From Pseudomonadota bacterium (GTDB lineage Bacteria; Pseudomonadota; Gammaproteobacteria; Xanthomonadales; SZUA-38): 64,000 nucleotides of DNA. Made by a program: the position numbers and the translations under genes. The stretch's first letter is position 1. Each line of letters begins with the position of its first letter. The DNA lies in contig JBCCCR010000030.1 in assembly GCA_039033415.1 (NCBI GenBank), forward strand, positions 1 to 64,000, read 5' to 3'. Below, piece after piece: positions 24,758 through 36,217 of the stretch. The notes under the pieces are model-generated. The model was given only the letters and a program-made list of their open reading frames with translations. It ran no database searches and was not told where the DNA came from.

Positions 24758-27700
24758 ATGACCACCGTGAGGACCAAAGAATCAGCCGCGCAGTCCGGCG
24801 CCCCGGCACCGGCAAAAGCAGGGAGATCCTCGAGGCAACGATTTCCCACCACCAGAGCGGGGGCCATCGGCTTGCGTCGCTTAGCCTTATGCTTTCTGCT
24901 GCTTGGCCTAATCGTTACGGTCAGCGCCGTAGCGCAAACGCCCGCCGGCAAGCCGCTGATCGAGTCCTGGACCATGGCCGAGTACGGCGGCAACGCGCAG
25001 AACTGGGTGATTCGTCAGGGGCCGGATGGCCTGATCTACGCCGGCAACAGCTCCAGCCTGCTGGTTTATGACGGAGCGAGCTGGCGCAACGTCCAGACGC
25101 AGAACGATGGCCGGGTACGCGACCTGAAGATCGACGAACAGGGTGGCGTCTGGGTCGCCTCGCCGAGCAACTTTGGGGTTTTTCGACGCGACAGCCGGGG
25201 CGAGCTGGCTTATCGGTCAATCAGCGATGAGCTGCCCGAGGATGAACGAAACTTCGGCGAGACCCGCCACGTGCATTTTCTCGGTGATGCGGTCTACTTC
25301 AACACGATCGACCGGATCTATCGCTGGGACGGCGACGGGTTCAGAACGATGGACCGTTGGGACGGTCCGTTCAGCATCACTTTCGTGCTGGGTGATCGCT
25401 ACTACGTGTTTTCCAAAGACCGACTTTACGACCTGACCGACCTTCCCGCCGAACCGCCCGAGCCACTGGATCGCTGGCGCTGGCCCGAAAGCAGCAAGAT
25501 CACGTTTTTTGTGCCGCTCGACCCGGAGCGCATCGTGATCGGCACCTACGACGATGGCATGTATCTGTTGAGCGATGGGCCGCCTGAGCGGTTCAACAAC
25601 GATGAGTCGCTGCGGACTGCCTGGCCCTACCAGGGGCTGCTCTTGAGTGACGGCACCGTTGCGGTGAGCACCATCAACAGCGGCGTGTTCCGGCTGGGGG
25701 TAGACGGTCAGCTCCTCGAGCAGGTCGACCGGGACGCCGGGCTCACCCAGAACACGACGACCGGTATCACCGTCGACCATCAGGGCGGCTTGTGGCTGGC
25801 CCAGGATGCCGCCATCGCTCGTGTAGAGCTGCAGCGATCGCTGCGCGTCTATGACGCTGACCTGAACATGAACTCACCGCGGGCGATTGTTGAGCAGGAT
25901 AGTGAGCTGCTGGTTGGCGGGCTGATCGGTGTGGGGCTGCTAACCGAAGGTGAGGGTTCGGTCGGTGAGCTGGTTTCGCTGGAAGCACCCATCCAGGAGT
26001 CGTTCGACATGCAGCTGACGCCAGAAGGCCTGCTGGTGGCGGGCCACAATGGCGTCCAGCTCATGCAGATCGACATCAAGGCACGAACCGCTGTCAGCGA
26101 CGGCGTCCTGCTGAGCCACAGCTACGCCTACTCACTTTTTCCGTCGCGCTTTCGCAACGCTTTTTATGTCGAACTCGATGCCGGCATGGGCTTGTTGACC
26201 AATGATGGAAGTGGGTGGGTCGCCCAGGATCAGATCGCCGGTATCGATGAACGCATTGGGCCCTTGGCGGAAGCTGATGACGGCACCGTTTGGGCCGGGT
26301 CCGGTACGGGTCAGTTTCACCAGCTTCGATGGGAGGGCAATTCGCTGAACTTGATCCGGACGCTTGACGCTGACGACGGTGTCCCGGAAGGCAACGCCCA
26401 CGTGTTTCGTGCTGGGGGTCGGCTGGTTTTCGGTACGACCCAAGGTGGCTATCAGCTCACCGCAGACGGCAACGCGCTGGAGCTGGACCCGCTGTTTGGT
26501 AATGAACAGCTTGGCGAGACCAAAGACGTATTCAGGCTCGACGAGTATCGGCCCGGTAAGCTGCTGGCGGTGCTTGGCGGGGTGTCAGACATCTGGCACG
26601 GCAGCATCGAGCCCTCTGGACAGTTCGTCTGGGAGGGGCGCGTTCTTCGTGACATCAATGAGGGGGCTACAGCGTTTTTCCGACTGCTGCGTGGCAAGGT
26701 GTGGCTGCCACGCTTGCCGGACCTGCTGGCCGTGAACCCGGATGAATTTGCCTCAAAGGCTGACGCTGAAAGTCAGGTGCACGTTCGTCGGATGGGGTAC
26801 ACCGACACCGGGGACCTATTGCTGGCTGGGAATGGCGGCGAGCTGTCGGCGGTGCTTCCCAACCGGCGTGACGCGCTCCGCTTCGAATATGCGCTCGCCA
26901 GTTTTCAGCAGCCCAGGCGCAACGAGTACCGGGTCCGCCTCAATGGACTGGAAGAGGGGTTCAGTCCCTGGAGTGAGGAAACGCGCCGCGATTACACCAA
27001 TCTTCCTGGCGGCGACTATCAATTCGAGGTGGAAGCCCGAAACGTTTTAGGTGAGGTATCGCGTTCGGCGCCCCTCGCGTTTTCGGTACGGCCCCCTGCC
27101 TATCTCTCAGGCCCAGCGCTCGCGGCCTACGGCGCAGCGGGCATCCTCCTGCTCTGGCTGGCCGGCTGGCTGGGCCAGCGACGAAGACAGGCCACGCTGC
27201 TGGCGCGCCAGCAGGAGCTGGAAACGGAAGTTGCGGAGCGGACCGGTGAAGTTCGCCGCCAGGCCCGGGAGCTCAAGGCGCTGAACGAGGCGCAGTCGCA
27301 ATTTTTTGCCAACGTATCCCATGAATTCCGCACGCCTCTGACACTGGCCCGGGGCCCGCTGGAGGAGCTGGCGAGCGGGCGGGCAGGCGAGCTGAGCGAG
27401 GAGGCTCAGCAGCATGTGGCCATGGCCTTGCGCAACACCCACACGCTGCAGGGTTTGATCGGACAGATCCTGGACCTGAAACGCCTGGAAGCCGGCGAGA
27501 TGCCGGTATCGATCGCACGGGACAACCTGGCAAAGCTGATCAAAGAAGGTGTGTTGAGCTTTGTGAATGAGGCGGAAAAACAGGCAGTGGTGCTCGACGC
27601 AGCCGGCATCAGCGAGACGGTGATCGCCGATTACGATCCCGGTCATATGCAGCAGGTGATTCGGAACCTCATGTCAAACGCCATGAAATTCAGCCCCGCA

Positions 27701-28771
27701 GGGGGCGCCATCAGCGTCACGCTCACCGTCGAGCCTGGCCCCGACCACCAGGAGGTGGTGCTGGTGGTCGCCGACCAGGGTCCCGGAATAACGGAAAAAG
27801 ATCTGCCCCGAATTTTTGAGCGCTACTATCAGGGCGACCAAACTCACGCCAGCGCGCCGGGAACCGGCATCGGCCTGGCGCTGGTCAGAGACCTCGTGTG
27901 CCTTCACCGCGGCGACATTTCGGCGACCAGCAAGCCCGGCAGCGGCGCTCGTTTTGAGGTCCGATTCCCCGACGAGCTGCCGGACCTTCGCCAGGAGGCT
28001 CGCCCCGTGGTGGATCCGGAAGTCGAGCTCGCCTCGCTCGACAGCGACGACATTCCCACCGTGTTGCTGGTCGACGACAATGAGGAGCTGCGCGGTTTTC
28101 TCAGCATGCGCCTCGGAGCCAACTACCGAATCCTGCAGGCCGCAGATGGTCAGGCCGGGCTCGACACCGCGCGAGCGGAAGTGCCCGATGTGATCATCAG
28201 CGATGTCATGATGCCGGTGAAGGACGGCCTCCAGATGACAGCCGAGCTGAAACAGGATCCGGAAACCGACTTCATTCCGATCATCTTGCTGAGCGCCAAA
28301 ACCACTAAACGCGATACCGTGACCGGACTGGAGCTCGGCGCCGACGACTACCTCGCCAAGCCTTTCGATACCGCTGAACTCGCCGCCCGCGTGGCGGGAC
28401 TGATCAGCTCGAGGCGCCGCTTACGGGAGCTCGCGGCAGCGGAGCCACAAGAAACGCGGTCCGCGTTTATGACCAGAGCACACGAGGTGCTCGATGAACG
28501 CCTCGGCGATGGCGACTTTGGCCCACGGGACTGGGCCGAGGCGCTGCATATGGATCGAACCACGCTTTACCGGCAGCTCAAAAAGGAAACCGACCTGGCG
28601 CCTGAGGAGTACCTTCGCGAACAACGGCTGCTCCAGGCGGCAACATTGCTGAAAAACAAGGCCGGTAACGTGAGCCAGGTTGCGATGACGGTGGGCTTCA
28701 ACAGCGTGTCGTATTTTTCCCGGCGCTTCAAAGAGCGCTTCGGCGTTTCGCCGGCGGGTTATGCGCGTTAG
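24758..28771 (+). CDS. One-piece hybrid two-component regulator (propeller sensor, kinase, receiver, AraC HTH)
   Basis: A 1337-residue protein. Order: N-terminal signal/anchor (LALCFLLLGLIVTVSAVA); two-component-regulator propeller repeats (~60-690; QGGLWLAQDAA, DGTVWAGSGTG); Y_Y_Y domain (EYRVRLNGLEEGFSPWS, ~720-775); a membrane helix (~784-805); HisKA with His855 in NVSHEFRTP; HATPase (NLMSNAMKFSP, DQGPGITEKD, GTGIGLALV); receiver with Asp1149 in IISDVMMPVKDG and Lys in AKPFD; C-terminal AraC-type HTH (~1248-1337). This is the HTCS architecture best known for polysaccharide sensing in Bacteroidota, where periplasmic ligand binding directly controls nearby genes. It is divergent from the FG-GAP-like protein gene, a plausible target. 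ATG at 24758 chosen over the longer 24653 start, which would add 35 non-signal residues. Its stop overlaps the convergent kinase stop. Confidence 0.9.
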   Translation: MTTVRTKESAAQSGAPAPAKAGRSSRQRFPTTRAGAIGLRRLALCFLLLGLIVTVSAVAQTPAGKPLIESWTMAEYGGNAQNWVIRQGPDGLIYAGNSSSLLVYDGASWRNVQTQNDGRVRDLKIDEQGGVWVASPSNFGVFRRDSRGELAYRSISDELPEDERNFGETRHVHFLGDAVYFNTIDRIYRWDGDGFRTMDRWDGPFSITFVLGDRYYVFSKDRLYDLTDLPAEPPEPLDRWRWPESSKITFFVPLDPERIVIGTYDDGMYLLSDGPPERFNNDESLRTAWPYQGLLLSDGTVAVSTINSGVFRLGVDGQLLEQVDRDAGLTQNTTTGITVDHQGGLWLAQDAAIARVELQRSLRVYDADLNMNSPRAIVEQDSELLVGGLIGVGLLTEGEGSVGELVSLEAPIQESFDMQLTPEGLLVAGHNGVQLMQIDIKARTAVSDGVLLSHSYAYSLFPSRFRNAFYVELDAGMGLLTNDGSGWVAQDQIAGIDERIGPLAEADDGTVWAGSGTGQFHQLRWEGNSLNLIRTLDADDGVPEGNAHVFRAGGRLVFGTTQGGYQLTADGNALELDPLFGNEQLGETKDVFRLDEYRPGKLLAVLGGVSDIWHGSIEPSGQFVWEGRVLRDINEGATAFFRLLRGKVWLPRLPDLLAVNPDEFASKADAESQVHVRRMGYTDTGDLLLAGNGGELSAVLPNRRDALRFEYALASFQQPRRNEYRVRLNGLEEGFSPWSEETRRDYTNLPGGDYQFEVEARNVLGEVSRSAPLAFSVRPPAYLSGPALAAYGAAGILLLWLAGWLGQRRRQATLLARQQELETEVAERTGEVRRQARELKALNEAQSQFFANVSHEFRTPLTLARGPLEELASGRAGELSEEAQQHVAMALRNTHTLQGLIGQILDLKRLEAGEMPVSIARDNLAKLIKEGVLSFVNEAEKQAVVLDAAGISETVIADYDPGHMQQVIRNLMSNAMKFSPAGGAISVTLTVEPGPDHQEVVLVVADQGPGITEKDLPRIFERYYQGDQTHASAPGTGIGLALVRDLVCLHRGDISATSKPGSGARFEVRFPDELPDLRQEARPVVDPEVELASLDSDDIPTVLLVDDNEELRGFLSMRLGANYRILQAADGQAGLDTARAEVPDVIISDVMMPVKDGLQMTAELKQDPETDFIPIILLSAKTTKRDTVTGLELGADDYLAKPFDTAELAARVAGLISSRRRLRELAAAEPQETRSAFMTRAHEVLDERLGDGDFGPRDWAEALHMDRTTLYRQLKKETDLAPEEYLREQRLLQAATLLKNKAGNVSQVAMTVGFNSVSYFSRRFKERFGVSPAGYAR

Positions 28772-30099
28772 AGCGGCAGCGTAACCACCAGCCGGGCCCC
28801 GGATTTCCAGGTCCGGTCCAGAGCTAGGCTGCCACCGTGAGCTTCGGCAACCAGCCGCGCGAGATAAAGCCCGAGACCGGTGCCGCCCGTTTGGCGAGCC
28901 CGGGAGGCGTCACTCCGGAAGAAGGGTTCGCCGAGTGCCTCAGCCTGCTGTTCGTCCAGGCCCGGACCGTGGTCGGCGACGGCGATCTGCAGGTGATCGA
29001 CGTCGCGTCTCGCCTGGATTGCCACCGGTCCTTCTTCTCGATTCCCGTAGCGCAGCGCGTTGGCAATCAAGTTCTTCAGCATCAGCGTCAGCCTGACCCG
29101 ATCGGCAAGAAGCGTGACGTCGGTTTCCATCTCCACCTGAATGTACTCACCGTCGCGGGCAAAGTAATCACGCAGCATGGTCTCGATCAGATCGCTGATG
29201 ACAACCTCTGAGCGGGCCAGCGCGCGGTGCCGATCGTTGAGCCGTTCGGCCTCCAGCAGCGCGTCGATGATGGTCTCCATCTCGAGCGCATCTTCCTTCA
29301 TTCCCTCAGACTGAGCGGTTGGTTCGGACAGCTCCAGCGCCAGCTTCATGCGCGACAGGGGTGTGCGCAGCTCGTGGCTGATGCCGAGCAGCAGCTGACG
29401 CTTGGCGTCCAGCATGCGTTGAACCTGATCAGCCATCGCGTTGATTTCACTCGCCAGGTCACCCAGCTGATCCTGTCGGACCCGGGTTATCCGGTGCTGC
29501 AGCTCCCCTCCACCCATCTTTGCCGCACCCTCTCGTATCGCATCCAGCGGTTTGAACAACCACCGCACGGCAAGGTAGGCCAGGAGCACCAGCGCGAGTC
29601 CAATAACCATAATCAACGGCGTTAGCTGGCGGTCATCGATCGGCTGACGCAATGTCGGCGTTGCCACCACGATGACGTAGGGGCCGTTGACCATGCGAAG
29701 GTAGCCGCGGCCACCCCAAACGGCGAACGTCACATCTTCCAGGTCGCGGAGCCAGGTCTGTACGTCGGCGCCAAACGTTTCGCTCGACCCAAATTCCAGT
29801 TCAGTAAGCGGGGGGAAATCAGGATGGGAGGCCCAATCCAGATCGGGGCCGGCAAGCCGTATGTCCACCGGTACCTTTTGGGTGATCGCCTCAGCCCTTG
29901 CTATCTCCGGCGGGAAACCGACATCCTGCCGCACGTAGTTCACGTGCAGCGACAGGTGGCCGCTGACCAGCTCGCGCAGCTGATCGGTGGCGTATACCCA
30001 GCGCACCGCCAGACTTGCGCCGTACGCGAACAGGGCTCCTAACAGCAGGAAAATGATCAGCAGCCGCAGCGACAGCGATCGAGTCAGGCGGTTGCTCAT
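28768..30099 (-). CDS. EnvZ/CpxA-like membrane sensor histidine kinase
   Basis: A 443-residue kinase. TM1 is at about 10-32, a periplasmic sensor at ~33-160 and TM2 (LIMVIGLALVLLAYLAV) at ~163-183, then a HAMP domain with coiled coil. HisKA has His242 in LLGISHELRTPLSRMKLAL. HATPase has an N-box NLIANALRYGN, DHGPGLDEQQ and GGTGLGLYLARL. Its ATG overlaps the stop of the upstream response regulator (ATGA), so the two are translationally coupled. The 3' end overlaps the stop of the convergent hybrid sensor by four bases. The signal sensed is unknown. The pair sits head-to-head with the DUF2878-lipocalin operon, suggesting envelope or lipid stress as its theme. Confidence 0.92.
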   Translation of the reverse strand: MSNRLTRSLSLRLLIIFLLLGALFAYGASLAVRWVYATDQLRELVSGHLSLHVNYVRQDVGFPPEIARAEAITQKVPVDIRLAGPDLDWASHPDFPPLTELEFGSSETFGADVQTWLRDLEDVTFAVWGGRGYLRMVNGPYVIVVATPTLRQPIDDRQLTPLIMVIGLALVLLAYLAVRWLFKPLDAIREGAAKMGGGELQHRITRVRQDQLGDLASEINAMADQVQRMLDAKRQLLLGISHELRTPLSRMKLALELSEPTAQSEGMKEDALEMETIIDALLEAERLNDRHRALARSEVVISDLIETMLRDYFARDGEYIQVEMETDVTLLADRVRLTLMLKNLIANALRYGNREEGPVAIQARRDVDHLQIAVADHGPGLDEQQAEALGEPFFRSDASRARQTGGTGLGLYLARLVAEAHGGSLALDRTWKSGARLVVTLPL

Positions 30100-30794
30100 T
30101 CGCTGACTGACTGGCCGGTAAACAGATACCCATAACCCCAGGCGGTCTGAATCAGTCGACCCGGTTTTTCCGTGTCGTTGAGCTTCTGGCGCAGTCGGCT
30201 GATCATGATGTCCACCGAGCGGGTGAGAATTGTCGAGTCGATCCCTTTGAGCTGATTAAGGATCTCATCCCGCGACATTTTCTGTCCCGGGTTGCTGGCG
30301 AGCAGGAACAGCAGCTCGTATTCCATGGACGTGAGATTGACCTCAGCACCATCAGCGTGCACCGAGCGCTTGGACGGATCGATTTCCAGCCCCTCAAAGC
30401 GCAGCACACCATTTTGTGGTGCTTCAGATTGCCCGCCGGATCGGCGCAGAATCGTGTTGATGCGGGCAACCAGTTCGCGGGGCTCAAACGGTTTGGTGAT
30501 GTAGTCGTCAGCGCCGAGCTCAAGGCCGGATACGCGATCGATCACGTCGTCACGGGCGGTAAGCATGATCACCGGAAGCTGGCCCTGGCGCCGGACCTCC
30601 CGACAAATCTCAAAACCATCTTTGCCAGGCAGCATCACGTCGAGCAGCAGCAGGTCAGGCTTTTCGGTGTCGATCATCGGCAGCCCGGTCTCCGCGTCCC
30701 CGGCACAGATCAACTCGATGCCAAAGCGCTCAAAGTAGCTTTTGAGCAGCGCCGAGTGGCGCTCGTCGTCGTCAATGATCAGGACCCTGTTCAT
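30096..30794 (-). CDS. OmpR-family response regulator
   Basis: A 232-residue protein. Receiver domain: IDDDE acidic pocket, phospho-acceptor Asp in DLLLLDVMLPGKDGFE, Thr in VIMLTARDD and Lys in TKPFEPRE. C-terminal winged-helix domain (~135-230): LTSMEYELLFLLASNPG, SRDEILNQ and RSVDIMISRLRQKL, ending with the wing TAWGYGYLF. Start set at 30794 (MNRVLIIDDDE); the longer in-frame start at 30839 adds 15 residues with no domain role. It is the first gene of the two-gene operon with the EnvZ-like kinase and diverges from the DUF2878 operon, with 152 bases between start codons where its binding sites would be expected. Confidence 0.93.
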   Translation of the reverse strand: MNRVLIIDDDERHSALLKSYFERFGIELICAGDAETGLPMIDTEKPDLLLLDVMLPGKDGFEICREVRRQGQLPVIMLTARDDVIDRVSGLELGADDYITKPFEPRELVARINTILRRSGGQSEAPQNGVLRFEGLEIDPSKRSVHADGAEVNLTSMEYELLFLLASNPGQKMSRDEILNQLKGIDSTILTRSVDIMISRLRQKLNDTEKPGRLIQTAWGYGYLFTGQSVSE

Positions 30795-30946
30795 GGCCAC
30801 AGCATAGCGGCATTGGGCATCAAAAAATCGTTCAAACACCGAGTTTCGGGGCTACAGATACATTTAGAAACAACTGGAAAAGGAACAGAGACCTCTGAAA
30901 GGCGCCGGAGCCGCAGGATGTGTCCATCACAACAGGAGACACCATC

Positions 30947-31552
30947 ATGCAGTTCCAAACCGAAACCGGCGCAACCGCCATGGCAAGCCTGCCAGCCGCG
31001 AAGACGCCATCCACCGTCCACGTGCTGGCCAACGCTGTAGCCTTCAAGCTGGTGTGGGCCGCCGCCATCCTCGGGGCAGCCAACCTTAGCCCCTGGCTCG
31101 GCGTCTGGGCCGCAGCAGCCGTCCTGACGGGCCATCTGTTTGCCGTACCCAACAAACACCAGGAACTTCGGCTGGTGCTGTTGACAGCCCTGATTGGCTT
31201 CAGCACCGACAGCCTGTTTGCTGCCACCGGCATGCTGCAGTACACGTCGGGGCAGCTCGCATCATGGCTCGCGCCGGTGTGGATCTTCGGCCTGTGGATC
31301 GGTTTTGGCACCACGCTGAACGTCGCCTTCCGCTGGCTGCAGCACCGCTGGACGGTGGCAACGATTCTCGGCGCCGTCTCCGGACCGCTGTCGTATCTCG
31401 CCGGCGCAAAGATGGGAGCCGTGACCTTTCCCGACACCGCGCTGGCGCTGGTCAGCCTGTCGGCAACCTGGTCGGTGCTGCTCCCCAGCCTGCTGGCGCT
31501 CGCTTCCAATTTCGGCTCAACGGCTGAGTCGCGGGAGGTGGCCCATGTTTGA
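30947..31552 (+). CDS. DUF2878 family inner-membrane protein
   Basis: A 201-residue protein. After a short hydrophilic N-terminus it has about six membrane helices. DUF2878 is recognised from NAVAFKLVWAAAILGAA, TGHLFAVPNKHQE and GAVSGPLSYLAGAKMGAV. Start at 30947 because AGGAG lies 8 bases upstream; nine earlier in-frame codons lack support. It overlaps the next gene by 8 bases. In many proteobacteria this family occurs with DUF1295, DUF3833, DUF1365, cyclopropane-fatty-acid-synthase-like and lipocalin genes, a set linked to membrane lipid modification and oxidative stress. The biochemical role is unknown. Confidence 0.87.
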   Translation: MQFQTETGATAMASLPAAKTPSTVHVLANAVAFKLVWAAAILGAANLSPWLGVWAAAAVLTGHLFAVPNKHQELRLVLLTALIGFSTDSLFAATGMLQYTSGQLASWLAPVWIFGLWIGFGTTLNVAFRWLQHRWTVATILGAVSGPLSYLAGAKMGAVTFPDTALALVSLSATWSVLLPSLLALASNFGSTAESREVAHV

Positions 31553-32357
31553 GCTGAGCGCATTTTTGACGGCCCTCGCGGCGGTTGTCGCGTTCGCCGG
31601 CCTGGGTTGGGTGCTGAGCCTGCGGCTGAAGGATGTGAGCATCGTCGATTCAATGTGGTCGCTCATGTTTTTGCTGACCGTCTCGACGTATGCCTTCACC
31701 CTGAGCTCAACCGGCCCCCGCGTTGCGCTGGTGCTGGCCCTGCTGGCGATCTGGGCGATTCGGCTGTCGGCCTACATCACCTGGAGAAACTGGGGTGAGG
31801 GTGAAGACTTTCGCTACCAGGAGATCCGCGCGAACAACCAGCCGGGCTTCGAGTTTAAGAGTCTGTACATCGTGTTTGGACTGCAGGCGCTGCTGGCGTT
31901 TGTCATCGCTCTGCCGCTGCTGGTGGCGGTCCAGAGCGACGCGCCGCTCGGGCCGCTGGACGCGGCTGGTGCGTTGCTTTGGCTGATCGGCCTGATCTTT
32001 GAGGCCGGCGGCGACTGGCAGCTGACTCGCTTCCGGGCCAGCCCCGACAACCGCGGCAAGGTGCTGGACAGCGGTCTCTGGGGCCTTACCCGGCATCCGA
32101 ACTACTTCGGCGATTTCTGCATTTGGTGGGGTTTCTTCCTGCTGAGCCTCGGCGCCGGAGGCTGGTGGACCTTTATTTCACCGCTGTTGATGTCCGGCCT
32201 GCTGCTGCTGAAGGTGTCCGGCGTCGCGCTGCTCGAGAAAGGCATCGGCCAACGCCGGCCGGCTTACGCCCGCTACGTGCGGGAAACCAACGCGTTTTTT
32301 CCCGGACCCCGTCGTCGCTCGACCGGTTCGGATCTGGAACAAGGAGATCTGGCATGA
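31545..32357 (+). CDS. DUF1295 membrane protein, steroid 5-alpha-reductase-like
   Basis: A 270-residue protein with about seven membrane helices. The C-terminal hallmark of DUF1295 / ICMT-like / steroid-reductase-like proteins is clear: SPDNRGKVLDSGLWGLTRHP, NYFGDFCIWWGFFL and a late RRPAYARYVRETNAFFPG. The N-terminal Asp pair (VSIVDSMWSL) and the RNWGEGEDFRYQEIR loop also match. Members are predicted to reduce or modify a lipid acyl or polyprenoid double bond in the membrane using NADPH; this is family inference. It overlaps the DUF2878 gene by 8 bases and the next gene by 4 (ATGA), so it is tightly coupled within the operon. Confidence 0.9.
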   Translation: MFELSAFLTALAAVVAFAGLGWVLSLRLKDVSIVDSMWSLMFLLTVSTYAFTLSSTGPRVALVLALLAIWAIRLSAYITWRNWGEGEDFRYQEIRANNQPGFEFKSLYIVFGLQALLAFVIALPLLVAVQSDAPLGPLDAAGALLWLIGLIFEAGGDWQLTRFRASPDNRGKVLDSGLWGLTRHPNYFGDFCIWWGFFLLSLGAGGWWTFISPLLMSGLLLLKVSGVALLEKGIGQRRPAYARYVRETNAFFPGPRRRSTGSDLEQGDLA

Positions 32358-33040
32358 AGCTTTTAAATCAACTCTCAACGGCCGCTGCTGGGGCGACCCT
32401 GCTGCTGGCAGGCGGTGCCGCCGTCGCCAACGGCAACCTGTCCGCGCTGGACGTAGATACAGAACCGCGCGAATGGAACTTTCAGGTATATCTGAACGAC
32501 GATCCGATCGGTTATCACAACTTTCGGCTGGACCCACAGGACGGTGGATACCAGCTCCTGACGGAAGCCGAGTTTAAGGTGAAAGTGCTCTTTGTGACCG
32601 CCTACCGCTACGAGCACGAAAACATCGAAACATGGCGTGATGGATGCCTGGAGCGGATCGAGGCGCGCACCAACGACAACGGCGATCGTCTGGAGGTTAC
32701 CGGTCAGCGCGATACCGCTGGCTTCGAGCTGGCGGCGACGGGCGGTAGCGACTCACTGGATTCCGGATGTGTGCATACCTTTGCCTACTGGGACCTGGCG
32801 GCGCTCCAAGATGCCCGGCTGCTGAACTCTCAAACCGGTGCCTATCAGTCCGTGGATGTCGACCTCGTCGGTCGTGAGTCGATTGATGTGGACGGTGAGC
32901 AGGTTGCCGCAGACCGCTATAGCCTTGAGTCGGAGGGACTCGATCTCGATCTGTGGTACTCACCCGAAGGTGAATGGCTGGGCCTGACTTCTTACGTCAA
33001 AAAGGGGCGTCAGCTCCGTTACCGGCTGGTGCGATCATGA
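32354..33040 (+). CDS. DUF6134-type exported protein
   Basis: A 228-residue protein with a signal peptide (hydrophobic AAAGATLLLAGGAAVANG). The body has the pattern EWNFQVYLNDDPIGYHNFRL, YRYEHENIETWRDGCLERIE and LWYSPEGEWLGLTSYVKKGR, as in the DUF6134 family (predicted periplasmic beta-barrel-like lipid or protein interactors). Two Cys (CLERIE and SGCVHTF) could form a disulphide. The ATG is set by AAGGAG 7 bases upstream and overlaps the DUF1295 stop; its own stop overlaps the lipocalin start. Constant company with DUF1295 and lipocalin in an operon suggests a joint role in handling a modified lipid. Function unknown. Confidence 0.8.
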   Translation: MKLLNQLSTAAAGATLLLAGGAAVANGNLSALDVDTEPREWNFQVYLNDDPIGYHNFRLDPQDGGYQLLTEAEFKVKVLFVTAYRYEHENIETWRDGCLERIEARTNDNGDRLEVTGQRDTAGFELAATGGSDSLDSGCVHTFAYWDLAALQDARLLNSQTGAYQSVDVDLVGRESIDVDGEQVAADRYSLESEGLDLDLWYSPEGEWLGLTSYVKKGRQLRYRLVRS

Positions 33041-33576
33041 GCCGCCTTCGAGCGATTGCGCCGCTGATGCTGCTGGCCACCCTGATTGGATGCGCGGGCC
33101 GCAGCCCGGAGCTTGCCACCGTCCCGGAGGTCGACCTGGATCGTTTTATGGGCGACTGGTATGTAATTGCCCACATCCCGGCGTTTGTGGAGCGCAATGC
33201 GTATAACGCGATTGAGAGCTACGAGCGCAACGGCGATCGGATCAACACCACGTTTACGTTCCGGAATAAGGGTTTTGACGGACCCGAGAAGCAATATGAA
33301 CCCAACGCGATTGTGACGGATACAGACTCAAACGCGGTGTGGGGGATGCAGTTCTTGTGGCCGTTTCGTTCCGACTTCCGCATTGTCCACCTGGACGAGG
33401 AATACGGCACCACCATCATCGGTCGAAACAAGCGCGACTATGTCTGGATCATGGCTCGCGAGCCGGAGCTGTCCGATGCGGCTTATGAGGCGCTGACCAA
33501 GCAGGTAGCAGCCATGGGTTACGACCTCACCGAGCTGCGCCGGGTGCCTCAGCGTTGGCAGAACTCAGCACCCTGA
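33037..33576 (+). CDS. Outer-membrane lipocalin (Blc-like lipoprotein)
   Basis: A 179-residue protein with lipoprotein signal MSRLRAIAPLMLLATLIGC, then PEVDLDRFMGDWYVIAHIP, the GxW lipocalin signature. The calyx strands and the NKRDYVWIMAREPELSD segment follow, typical of bacterial lipocalins of the Blc group, which bind fatty acids or lysophospholipids at the outer membrane. ATGA overlap with the upstream gene makes it the last member of the four-gene operon; a strong terminator follows. Within the operon it probably binds or shuttles the lipid handled by the DUF1295 enzyme (inference). Confidence 0.92.
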   Translation: MSRLRAIAPLMLLATLIGCAGRSPELATVPEVDLDRFMGDWYVIAHIPAFVERNAYNAIESYERNGDRINTTFTFRNKGFDGPEKQYEPNAIVTDTDSNAVWGMQFLWPFRSDFRIVHLDEEYGTTIIGRNKRDYVWIMAREPELSDAAYEALTKQVAAMGYDLTELRRVPQRWQNSAP

Positions 33577-33598
33577 TTGAGTGGGAGGTAGGAGAATT

Positions 33599-33632
33599 GC
33601 GCCCCGTCAGCCCGTTCCGGCTGGCGGGGCGC
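33599..33632 (+). terminator. Strong hairpin terminator after the lipocalin operon
   Basis: A 14-bp stem (33599-33612 with 33619-33632, one G-U pair) and a 6-base loop, followed by AACTTTCT. It lies 23 bases after the lipocalin stop and 84 bases before the convergent prolyl oligopeptidase stop, so it may serve both directions. Confidence 0.75.
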
Positions 33633-33715
33633 AACTTTCTGCAGATAGTGAGTCGTTCGAGCCCGGTAACTAGCAGCGTTTTGATATAGCCATGGATGGC
33701 TTTTTCAACAGTCTA

Positions 33716-35938
33716 CTAAGGCCCAGACGCGGTGGCCTGCTGGCCGTAACCTTCCGGCAGCGTCATGTTGAGATGTTCCGCCAGAAAACCCCAACGGTCC
33801 GCATATTCTGCGATCGTCTTGTCGGTAGGCTTGCCGGCACCGTGGCCCGCCCGGGACTCGATACGAATCAGTGCCGGCTTGCCGTCAGGATTGGCCGCCT
33901 GCAGCCGGGCGGCATATTTGAAGCTATGGCCTGGCACCACGCGATCGTCGGTATCAGCGGTGGTCACCATGATTGCCGGGTAGTCCACGCCTTCTTTGAT
34001 GTTGTGATACGGCGAGTATTTCAGCAGCGCAGCAAACTCTTCGGGGTTGTCCGAGGAGCCATAGTCGTCGACCCAGAATCGCCCGGCCGTGAACTTATGA
34101 AACCGCAGCATGTCCATCACGCCCACCGCGGGTATGGCGGCGGCAAACAGCTCAGGTCGTTGGTTGACCACAGCACCCACGAGCAGGCCGCCGTTGCTGC
34201 CGCCGAAGACCGCCAGCTGGGAGGGGGTTGTCCACTGCTCGGCAATCAGATACTCGGCCGCCGCAATGAAGTCATCGAATACGTTCTGCTTCTTCAGCTT
34301 AGTGCCCGCCTTGTGCCAGCCCTGACCGTATTCACCGCCGCCGCGAATGTTGGCGACCGCGTAGATGCCGCCCATCTCCATCCAGGCCAGGCGGGTGACG
34401 GAGAACGCGGGCCGCTGCGATGAGTTGAAGCCGCCGTAACCGTAAAGCATCGTCGGGTGCTGTCCGCCCGGCACCAAGTCTTTGCGGTGGCTGATAAACA
34501 TCGGAACCCGGGTCCCATCTTTGGACTGAAAGAACACCTGGCGCACGATGTAGTCTTCCGGCGCAAAGTCCACGCTTGCCTGGCGAAACGTCTCCTGCTC
34601 TCCGCTGCGAACATCGTAGCGATACGTCGTCGGCGGGATGTTGAAGCTGGAGTACGTGTAAAAGGTCTCCGGGTTGTCGGGCGTGCCGGAAAATCCGCTC
34701 ACTGTTCCGATACCCGGGAGGTTGAGCTCGCGATCGAAAGTGCCGTCTTCCTGGTGGATGCGAATCTGCGACCGAGCATCCTTCAGATAGCTGGTAATGA
34801 GCCGGCCGCCGATCATCACGGCCCCCTGCAGCACGTCTTCCCGTTCCGCCACCAGCGGCAGCTCAGCACCCGGCTTGTTCACGTCGATAGCGATCAGACG
34901 GCCATTCGGGGCATCCCGATCGGTGCGAAAAACCAGCTGGCTGCCGACGTTGCCGACGAGGGAATAGTCGTGGTTGAAACCTTCGATCAGCATCGCAGGC
35001 GAGGAGTCAGCGACCGTCAGGTCCTGCCACGCAATTTGGTAGCGCGAGTCGGTGCCTTGCCAGATGGTGATGACCAGATACCGACCGTCGTCGGTCACGG
35101 AAGCAAAGTAGCCCCACTCCGGATTATCAGAGTTGCCGTAAATGAGCTCGTCTTCCGCCTGCGGCGTGCCAACTCGGTGGAAGTACACCTGTTGATTGAG
35201 ATTCAGGTCCTGAAAGGCACCATCTTCGTCAGGCTCGGGGTACCGCGAGTAGTAAAACCCCGAGTCGTCCGAGGCCCACGCCATCGGGGTGAATTTCGCC
35301 CAGCTGACCTCGTCCTCCAGCGTTTTCCCGGTGGCAACGTCCAGCACCTTGAGCGTTCGCCAATCCGAGCCGCCGTCCTGGATCGCCAGCGCCAGGTAGC
35401 GAGCGCTTGGGCTGATCTCATAGGAAGCTAACGCCACGGTGCCGTCCTCTGACCATTCATTCGGATCGATCAGGACACGGGGCTCACCGGTGAGGCCTTC
35501 CTGCATCATGACCTGCCGTTGGTTGCTGAGCCCGTCGTTGTAGCTGAAAAAATACTTCCCCGCTTTACGTATTGGCGTTGAAAAGCGCTCGTAGTCCCAG
35601 AGCTGAGTGAGGCGCTCAGCAATCGGCCCACGCTCCTCGATGCCGTCCAGGTACGAAAAGGTAACGGCATTTTGCTCATCCACCCACTGCGCCACCTGCT
35701 CGGACTCACGCACGTCGTCCTCAAGCCAGCGATATGCGTCGGCCACTTGCTGACCGTGATAAGCGTCAACGTGATCGACCGTAGCGGTCGACGGATAGCT
35801 GAGCGTTGGATTCACTTCGTTCATCGTTGCGGCGTTTTTATCAGCCGCAGAGCTTGCGGATTGGTTTGGGGAGGAGTCCGGCGCATCACCGCAGCCGACC
35901 AAAGCTGCACTGAGCAGCACCAGGGAAAGTCGTTTCAT
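33716..35938 (-). CDS. Prolyl oligopeptidase (S9A), lipoprotein
   Basis: A 740-residue enzyme. The lipoprotein signal MKRLSLVLLSAALVGCGD is followed by a low-complexity Ser/Ala linker, the PREP N-terminal seven-bladed propeller (~60-475) and the C-terminal alpha/beta hydrolase domain. The nucleophile is Ser581 in FGGSNGGLLVGA; Asp lies in TADTDDRVVPGHS and His in RAGHGAGKPTDK. It cleaves short peptides after proline, here in the periplasm or at the outer membrane. Start at 35938 to keep the lipobox at residue 16; the longer in-frame start at 36031 would hide it. Length is normal for the family. No FE-tag. Confidence 0.93.
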   Translation of the reverse strand: MKRLSLVLLSAALVGCGDAPDSSPNQSASSAADKNAATMNEVNPTLSYPSTATVDHVDAYHGQQVADAYRWLEDDVRESEQVAQWVDEQNAVTFSYLDGIEERGPIAERLTQLWDYERFSTPIRKAGKYFFSYNDGLSNQRQVMMQEGLTGEPRVLIDPNEWSEDGTVALASYEISPSARYLALAIQDGGSDWRTLKVLDVATGKTLEDEVSWAKFTPMAWASDDSGFYYSRYPEPDEDGAFQDLNLNQQVYFHRVGTPQAEDELIYGNSDNPEWGYFASVTDDGRYLVITIWQGTDSRYQIAWQDLTVADSSPAMLIEGFNHDYSLVGNVGSQLVFRTDRDAPNGRLIAIDVNKPGAELPLVAEREDVLQGAVMIGGRLITSYLKDARSQIRIHQEDGTFDRELNLPGIGTVSGFSGTPDNPETFYTYSSFNIPPTTYRYDVRSGEQETFRQASVDFAPEDYIVRQVFFQSKDGTRVPMFISHRKDLVPGGQHPTMLYGYGGFNSSQRPAFSVTRLAWMEMGGIYAVANIRGGGEYGQGWHKAGTKLKKQNVFDDFIAAAEYLIAEQWTTPSQLAVFGGSNGGLLVGAVVNQRPELFAAAIPAVGVMDMLRFHKFTAGRFWVDDYGSSDNPEEFAALLKYSPYHNIKEGVDYPAIMVTTADTDDRVVPGHSFKYAARLQAANPDGKPALIRIESRAGHGAGKPTDKTIAEYADRWGFLAEHLNMTLPEGYGQQATASGP

Positions 35939-36217
35939 GGAACTAGGGTCCTCGAGAACTGGAAGTTGCCGGCGGGAGAGCCGGCACGGCCTGTGGCGGG
36001 CGAGCCTAGTCGCTTCCAAAGCCGTCGCCATGTGCCAATAGTCAGGACCGCCGGGCGCTCAAGTTTATTTCGCCCTAGCCGATAATTTTCGCTTAGGAGC
36101 GCTTTGCTCGAACAACCGATTCTGTTGGCCTTGGGCGTTGAGTCCGCGGTCCGGCAGAACCGCTGAACGTACAGGCGCTACGGACGCTATGCCTCTGCTG
36201 GTTGGCTACGAGTCTCT
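35939..36217. other. Intergenic region between divergent prolyl oligopeptidase and GGDEF genes
   Basis: About 279 bases separate two divergent starts and should hold both promoters. A GATAAT box occurs at 36081-36086 in an AT-richer patch, but no -35 box at proper spacing was found. No RNA gene or repeat is evident. Confidence 0.4.

Follow-up and report, generated by a model that had tools for sequence, protein, structure and literature searches.

A two-component regulator pair and a putative envelope-lipid operon in a gammaproteobacterial genome

This report concerns a DNA stretch of 64,000 nucleotides (the window) from a Pseudomonadota bacterium (JBCCCR010000030.1, positions 1-64,000; genome 6.42 Mb, 98.67% complete) and, within it, a DUF2878-DUF1295-DUF6134-lipocalin operon that lies divergently to the genes of a response regulator and a sensor histidine kinase. 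We consider it probable that the locus is an envelope-lipid protection module of the kind known from the RpoE/ChrR lipid genes, and that it is run by this dedicated two-component system. The connection between pair and operon, put forward earlier from the bare sequence (the original prediction), was supported in three ways: an orthologous pair stands beside the operon in other lineages, the two share an operator with fixed spacing, and in genome G396 the site is present at the operon in trans. The features of the locus are as follows (window coordinates, strand).

28768-30099, - strand: sensor histidine kinase, type A (Pfam HAMP, HisKA and HATPase_c); just outside the interval 30096-33632 of the original prediction
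30096-30794, - strand: OmpR-family response regulator, type A (Pfam Response_reg and Trans_reg_C)
30795-30946, no strand: divergent intergenic control region, a 152-base gap between open reading frames (ORFs)
30801-30806, - strand: -10 element TATGCT of the regulator gene, 6 bases ahead of the ATG
30857-30872, - strand: predicted regulator-binding site TGTTTC-N4-TGTATC, the regulator-facing form of the tandem pattern
30947-31552, + strand: DUF2878 (Pfam, 137 bits); likely ATG start, GGAG at 30935-30938
31545-32357, + strand: DUF1295 (Pfam, 231 bits, also Steroid_dh); 8-base overlap with DUF2878
32354-33040, + strand: DUF6134 (Pfam, 170 bits); ATGA, 4-base overlap with DUF1295
33037-33576, + strand: lipocalin lipoprotein (Pfam Lipocalin_2, 127 bits); ATGA, 4-base overlap with DUF6134
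33597-33634, + strand: strong hairpin at the operon end, 16 pairs (71 bases folded, -39.6 kcal/mol)

The four lipid genes had been described as an overlapping unit, and their ORFs, all on the + strand, do overlap by 8, 4 and 4 bases. The divergence from the regulator and kinase genes was also confirmed, both of these being on the - strand with a mutual overlap of 4 bases. All proteins of the operon and of the pair matched their Pfam families above the family cut-offs. The hairpin is a possible terminator without a long T run; a terminator scan called none at 33597-33634.

Genome contigs were scanned with the DUF1295 protein of the window, and the best 80 of the 181 relatives found were used as loci (L numbers). 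DUF1295 was accompanied by DUF6134 and/or a lipocalin at 30 of the 80 loci, a recurrence which argues that the gene order is not due to chance; an automated count gave 31 module loci, as it included L063, whose lipocalin is distant. A survey of the regulators next to the operon, suggested as a check in the original prediction, revealed an orthologous pair (type A) beside 12 of the 30 other loci. These comprise L003 (regulator 93%, kinase 85% identical to those of the window), ten loci with regulators of 61-66% (that of L032 a fragment) and kinases of 53-55% identity, and L019, which was assigned by a kinase fragment only (59%) at a contig end. The operons of all 11 type-A loci besides L003 also contain CFA2, AMOX, DUF1365 and CFA1, that is, two CFA-type methylases and a UfaD-like oxidase among others. 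At six loci the neighbour of the operon is an unrelated OmpR-type pair (type B), its regulators being 32-33% identical to that of the window and 69-82% to that of L004; a type-B kinase was detected at L011 (56%), too, and at 8 of 30 loci drawn from relatives of the window genome. The type-B pair follows or precedes the operon on the same strand in L004, L005, L008, L012 and others, and L004 has a second DUF6134 gene behind the pair.

Taken together, a pair (12 type A and 6 type B) was found beside 18 of the 31 module loci and 0 of the 49 loci without the module (Fisher p 5.8e-10, descriptive only, the rows being related and not independent); if L011 is counted as type B by its kinase, pairs occur at 19 of 30 module loci. 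In the DUF1295 tree type A appears in three places (the window with L003, L007/L023, and nine Woeseiaceae-type rows), with 6 label changes. The presence of two unrelated two-component systems at one operon suggests repeated pressure for envelope-side control. A photolyase-like ORF was seen upstream of, and divergent from, the operon at 9 of 33 loci, 7 of them type A (Pfam check in L018 only). Because a photolyase-like gene lies between kinase and operon in 7 of the 12 type-A loci, photo-oxidation or lipid peroxidation is the most likely stress.

The original prediction had spoken of an EnvZ/OmpR-type pair. This holds for the domain architecture, which the pair has in common with OmpR/EnvZ and RstAB, but not for literal orthology, which was rejected since the NCBIfam equivalog cut-offs were missed (208.1 of 331 bits for OmpR, 150.1 of 415 for EnvZ); both proteins stayed below the NCBIfam cut-offs of every family among the 25 matches listed per protein. 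The tandem-site style of operator is another trait of OmpR/EnvZ and RstAB found with the pair of the window. The regulators of the window and of type A share the stretch R[SA]VDIM[IV]SR[LI]R[QN]KL, which we take to be the recognition helix. In the kinase a presumed periplasmic domain (approximately residues 32-155, membrane helices judged by eye) is followed by HAMP, HisKA and HATPase_c; it is 50-58% identical to that of 10 other-species orthologues and 89% to that of L003, and is conserved about equally with the kinase part.

In Woeseiaceae-type loci TGTAAG-N4-TGTAAC recurs upstream of the operon, and several of the pairs at these loci have TGTWWC-N4-TGTWWC upstream of the regulator gene. The combined pattern, TGTWWS-N4-TGTWWC located 38-40 bases before a -10 element TA[TG]NNT, was searched for over the 80 loci (1.01 Mb). 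There were 16 matches, a count that is to be taken as a description because the pattern was derived from these loci: 6 before the regulator gene (L007, L017, L018, L021, L023, L052), 10 before the operon (L017, L018, L019, L021, L032, L038, L039, L048, L052, L070), and none elsewhere. Ten order-1 resampled controls gave 0 matches. If no spacing was demanded, 23 sites were obtained over the 80 loci. The 7 beyond the 16 were weaker neighbours of the same places (L003, L064), overlapping registers (L021, L048), two sites about 250 bases before the L052 regulator and one unexplained site in L082.

The half-sites of the window site, TGTTTC and TGTATC, recur ahead of the L018 orthologue of the regulator gene, and the site is the only match of the loose pattern in 134.8 kb of this genome; at the genome-wide density, a chance match in the 152-base gap would be expected in about 2 of 10,000 cases. 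The regulator genes have a further regularity: TA[TG]NNT, exactly 6 bases and then ATG were found in 12 of 12 type-A regulator genes checked, those of the window and L154 included (L155 is without this arrangement; L032, L156 and L157 yielded no row). With the distance between -10 element and ATG thus fixed, the mRNAs of type-A regulators are likely to be leaderless.

Additional pairs were sought by searching 369 genomes of the class with the regulator of the window (E at most 1e-72). Four new type-A-like regulators were obtained, in G396 (65% identity), G595 (57%), G323 and G443 (both 53%). In all four genomes a tandem site lies where the regulator gene starts, with one match per stretch of 14.7-19.9 kb, and the exact operator spacing at the regulator was seen only in G396. 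DUF6134 is encoded elsewhere in the genome in three of the four; in G323 a type-B pair (regulator 71%, kinase 51%) is beside the operon, with no loose site in 12.4 kb around it, and in G443 the contig begins at CFA2. A strict operon pattern, TGTAAS-N4-TGTAAC-N38-40-TATANT, was then searched for in 12 genomes and gave 6 matches in 6 of them (reversed control 0). Five of these belong to operons that were already known, those of L017, L018, L021, L038 and L052. The remaining match is in G396, a genome that had no part in deriving the pattern, and starts 63 bases upstream of the first codon at which CFA2 could begin, in an operon CFA2-DUF2878-DUF1295-DUF6134-lipocalin-AMOX-DUF1365-CFA1. As this operon is on contig C32 and the pair on contig C1, the type-A regulator and its site go with the operon beyond adjacency in one independent genome.

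According to the mechanism that we propose, the locus of the window would be half of an envelope-lipid protection module, broadly akin to the lipid genes of the singlet-oxygen (RpoE/ChrR) response. The kinase, judged by its family, would sense an envelope condition through the conserved periplasmic domain and phosphorylate the regulator, and the latter would bind TGTWWC half-sites in tandem at a 10-base distance, those of the window being at 30857-30872. Comparison with the relatives supports the view that it acts on its own gene and, through a putative DUF2878 promoter, on the divergent operon, be it as activator or as repressor. DUF1295, as a reductase-like enzyme, and its six-helix partner DUF2878 may modify or handle an acyl lipid, whereas the EipB/LolA-like DUF6134 and the outer-membrane Blc-type lipocalin may bind or move lipid, or scavenge damaged lipid. 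What in the relatives is one operon together with two CFA-type methylases and UfaD-like and UfaO-like enzymes would here be divided, these enzymes being at a second locus on another contig with no visible site.

The properties of the four proteins are compatible with such roles. The DUF2878 protein is predicted to be a six-helix membrane protein (AlphaFold2 model with six helices, predicted local distance difference test score (pLDDT) 89.8). Its best fold match was MvINS (Z 6.7, root-mean-square deviation (rmsd) 2.8, 113 aligned), a similarity within the range of common helical arrangements, and identification as an Insig was rejected as too weak. DUF1295 has a Steroid_dh/DUF1295 domain, keeps the N-Y-x-G-[DE] motif of SRD5A-like reductases (here RHPNYFGD) and matches 7c83 weakly (E 0.0021, residues 137-206); on these sequence traits it appears to be a reductase-like membrane protein of the steroid-5-alpha-reductase kind.

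DUF6134 is predicted to be a secreted beta-spiral protein (AlphaFold2 on 27 sequences, pLDDT 89.1; signal peptide judged by eye), and its cysteines C98 and C139 are invariant in 27 of 27 aligned sequences. The nearest solved folds were EipB/DUF1849 (Z 14.9, rmsd 3.7, 191 aligned) and, with the same Z, an axonemal protein chain, followed by DUF1089 (Z 10.2), VioE (9.8), LmcA (9.6) and LolA (8.9); Foldseek agreed on DUF1849 and VioE. By sequence there was no solved relative up to E 1, and the protein falls outside DUF1849, Pfam giving DUF6134 only (E up to 0.001). Thus the predicted fold resembles that of Brucella EipB, but the Pfam family is another one, the identity is 12%, and the gene neighbourhood of EipB, as given in the available part of PMC10787603, is different. 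No mention of DUF6134 was found in the literature searched. The lipocalin has a lipobox, LIGC, present also in L003; 19 of 26 orthologues conform to a narrow lipobox pattern, and some of the 7 misses keep the C at that place. It matches the structures of Blc and of plant temperature-induced lipocalin. Lipocalin_2 and the lipobox are common to it and Blc, but it reaches 73.2 of 267 bits for NCBIfam PRK10477 and sits in an operon.

Lipid handling by the operon proteins appears likely, as the predicted set combines a reductase and its partner in the membrane with a carrier-like protein in the periplasm and a lipid binder in the outer membrane. The inner-to-outer-membrane route for a modified lipid, which the original prediction had envisaged, is a tentative reading of the folds and localisation signals. 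Possible, although doubtful, is the opposite direction, in which the operon would be a scavenging and repair unit: lipocalin and DUF6134 would pick up oxidised or lyso-lipids at the outer membrane and pass them inwards, where DUF1295/DUF2878 would reduce them. The likeness to Blc and temperature-induced lipocalin, the reductase-like nature of DUF1295 and the photolyase-like neighbours, which point to light damage, would agree with it, but fold similarity does not show function, substrate or direction. Such a role would be compatible with the regulatory part of the explanation preferred here, a lipid-protection operon under the adjacent pair.

This genome encodes DUF2878 twice and DUF6134 once. 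The second DUF2878 gene is on contig C27, in a group consisting of desaturase, amine oxidase, DUF1365, CMAS methylase, DUF2878 and CMAS methylase, which at the level of Pfam families are related to UfaD, UfaO and the methylases that act on fatty acyl chains when furan fatty acids are made. In the available part of PMC7380195, the Rhodopseudomonas palustris UfaM, UfaD and UfaO homologues are reported to suffice for furan fatty acid in R. sphaeroides. The ChrR core regulon of Rhodobacter and Pseudomonas comprises, in the accessible sections of PMC5507510, phrB, amine oxidase/UfaD, DUF1365/UfaO, a CFA-type methylase, a short-chain dehydrogenase/reductase and a lipoprotein. The relatives of the window operon resemble this RpoE (ECF11)/ChrR regulon in combining CFA-type methylases, UfaD-like and UfaO-like genes, often with a photolyase-like neighbour. 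They differ from it by the two-component neighbour with the TGTWWC tandem site, the window genome having no ChrR over the cut-off; the regulon descriptions examined, as far as available, do not name the DUF2878-DUF1295-DUF6134-lipocalin set. RSP1088 was rejected as a DUF2878 protein, its P. syringae relative being called a lipoprotein in the accessible part of PMC5507510. VC1123 of Vibrio cholerae shares the Pfam family of the window DUF2878 but differs in regulator class, as it is assigned to the PhrR (MerR) regulon in the available part of a paper on a colonisation phenotype (PMC12971978). A two-component system at this operon is named in no title among the literature matches listed.

Canonical ChrR (TIGR02451) was not found in this genome, where the best of five partial matches had 34.3 of 124.5 bits. 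Among 40 genomes reached via 41 loci it exceeded the cut-off in three (two with type B, L005 and L006, and that of L045, where no pair was seen) and in 0 of the 12 type-A genomes, the completeness of genomes reached via contig loci not being stated. It was likewise over the cut-off in 0 of 8 comparison genomes of the order of the window, thus the lack of ChrR is not special to type A. ECF11-type promoters have the form TGATC[CA]-N16-20-TA, and this motif has no match in 30701-30960. Two photolyase-domain matches were found in the genome, on C6 and C3, the one on C6 beside a photolyase-related gene and a MerR gene; at L109 2421-6362 (C6) the MerR-type regulator gene is convergent with two photolyase-type genes. 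The original prediction that a two-component pair stands in the place of ChrR is upheld as to the tie between pair and operon (adjacency, operator, G396) and the lack of a canonical ChrR; the replacement itself is a possibility that fits these results.

Several observations weigh against control of the operon by the pair. Eleven of the 30 module loci have neither pair; in five of these the contig breaks off close to the operon (L014, L015, L020, L043, L070), in six it does not (L013, L029, L045, L053, L064, L082), L013 having another regulator (39%) 3.3 kb from the operon. Three type-A loci (L038, L039, L048) have no site on the regulator side, none of the four new pairs adjoins the lipid operon (the G396 pair is away from it, and L155-L157 show the site only), and 6 of the 12 genomes searched gave no match to the strict operon pattern (G595, G323, G443 and those of L003, L007 and L023). 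The loose pattern had 8 matches in the 6.42 Mb of this genome versus 9 when reversed, which is chance level genome-wide, and a regulon read from the whole genome was rejected for this reason. Three of the seven other loose matches precede, by eye, receiver-like ORFs (L143, L145 and L146, on C12, C17 and C26). No tandem site was detected in 39.8 kb of C27, and control of that enzyme locus by the same site was rejected. In R. sphaeroides single deletions of RSP1087, RSP1088 and RSP1089 left the fatty-acid profile unchanged (available part of PMC7380195), so the making of the fatty acid itself may not involve the accessory genes of such operons. Finally, the site in the window faces the regulator gene at 50 bases from the -10 element, versus 38-40 in the relatives (about one helical turn more), and the gap 30795-30946 contains no sigma-70 consensus; for these reasons the site may serve autoregulation only.

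It is conceivable, if rather improbable, that the pair autoregulates through this site and has other targets, the lipid operon being merely a neighbour here with its own control. The orientation of the site, the four type-A-like pairs carrying it without an adjacent operon and the lack of a recognisable DUF2878 promoter in the gap favour this, as does the failure to find an operon-type site at the locus (with one mismatch allowed, 8 matches in this genome, none at the locus, versus 12 reversed). However, ten operons of relatives bear a site of their own with fixed spacing, G396 has the site at the operon in trans, and L007 and L023 share the layout of the window, with one regulator-facing site in the divergent region and the operon on the other side. 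Control by an ECF/ChrR or MerR light regulator encoded elsewhere, described for core genes in other bacteria (PMC5507510 and PMC12971978, as far as available) and in keeping with the MerR gene beside the photolyase genes of this genome, is very improbable, as the genome has no ChrR over the cut-off and 30701-30960 no ECF11-type motif.

Going beyond lipid protection under a dedicated pair, we tentatively suggest, as a possibility that falls short of an even chance, an envelope-sensing pair with a very small regulon (itself and one lipid operon) that would read membrane photo-oxidation periplasmically, drive a furan-type or other modified fatty-acid pathway with its carriers, and have replaced the cytoplasmic ChrR, an unrelated pair having been recruited to that operon in other lineages. 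A conserved kinase with a defined operator offers a handle on the roles of the genes accompanying furan-fatty-acid synthesis and on the sensing of membrane photo-damage in bacteria without ChrR: a single sensor domain is the place in which to look for the signal, and from the operator one can predict the lipid genes that form one set.

Some features of the surroundings are worth recording. A hybrid sensor of 1,323 residues (24800-28768, + strand; propeller repeat, Y_Y_Y, kinase, receiver and AraC helix-turn-helix) is tail to tail with the type-A kinase, with a 4-base overlap, an arrangement present also in L003. A prolyl oligopeptidase gene with a lipoprotein-like start (33716-36031, - strand) is convergent with the operon, and L003 has one too. 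A gene for a DUF4397 protein lies between the type-A regulator and the operon in L007 (4944-6371) and L023 (3420-4874; Pfam check in L007 only), and similar ORFs were seen at 6 loci in all. The DUF1295 loci of metagenome bins titled Klebsiella, Planktophila and Janthinobacterium (L065, L033, L034) are close to those of gammaproteobacterial bins; the titles may be wrong.

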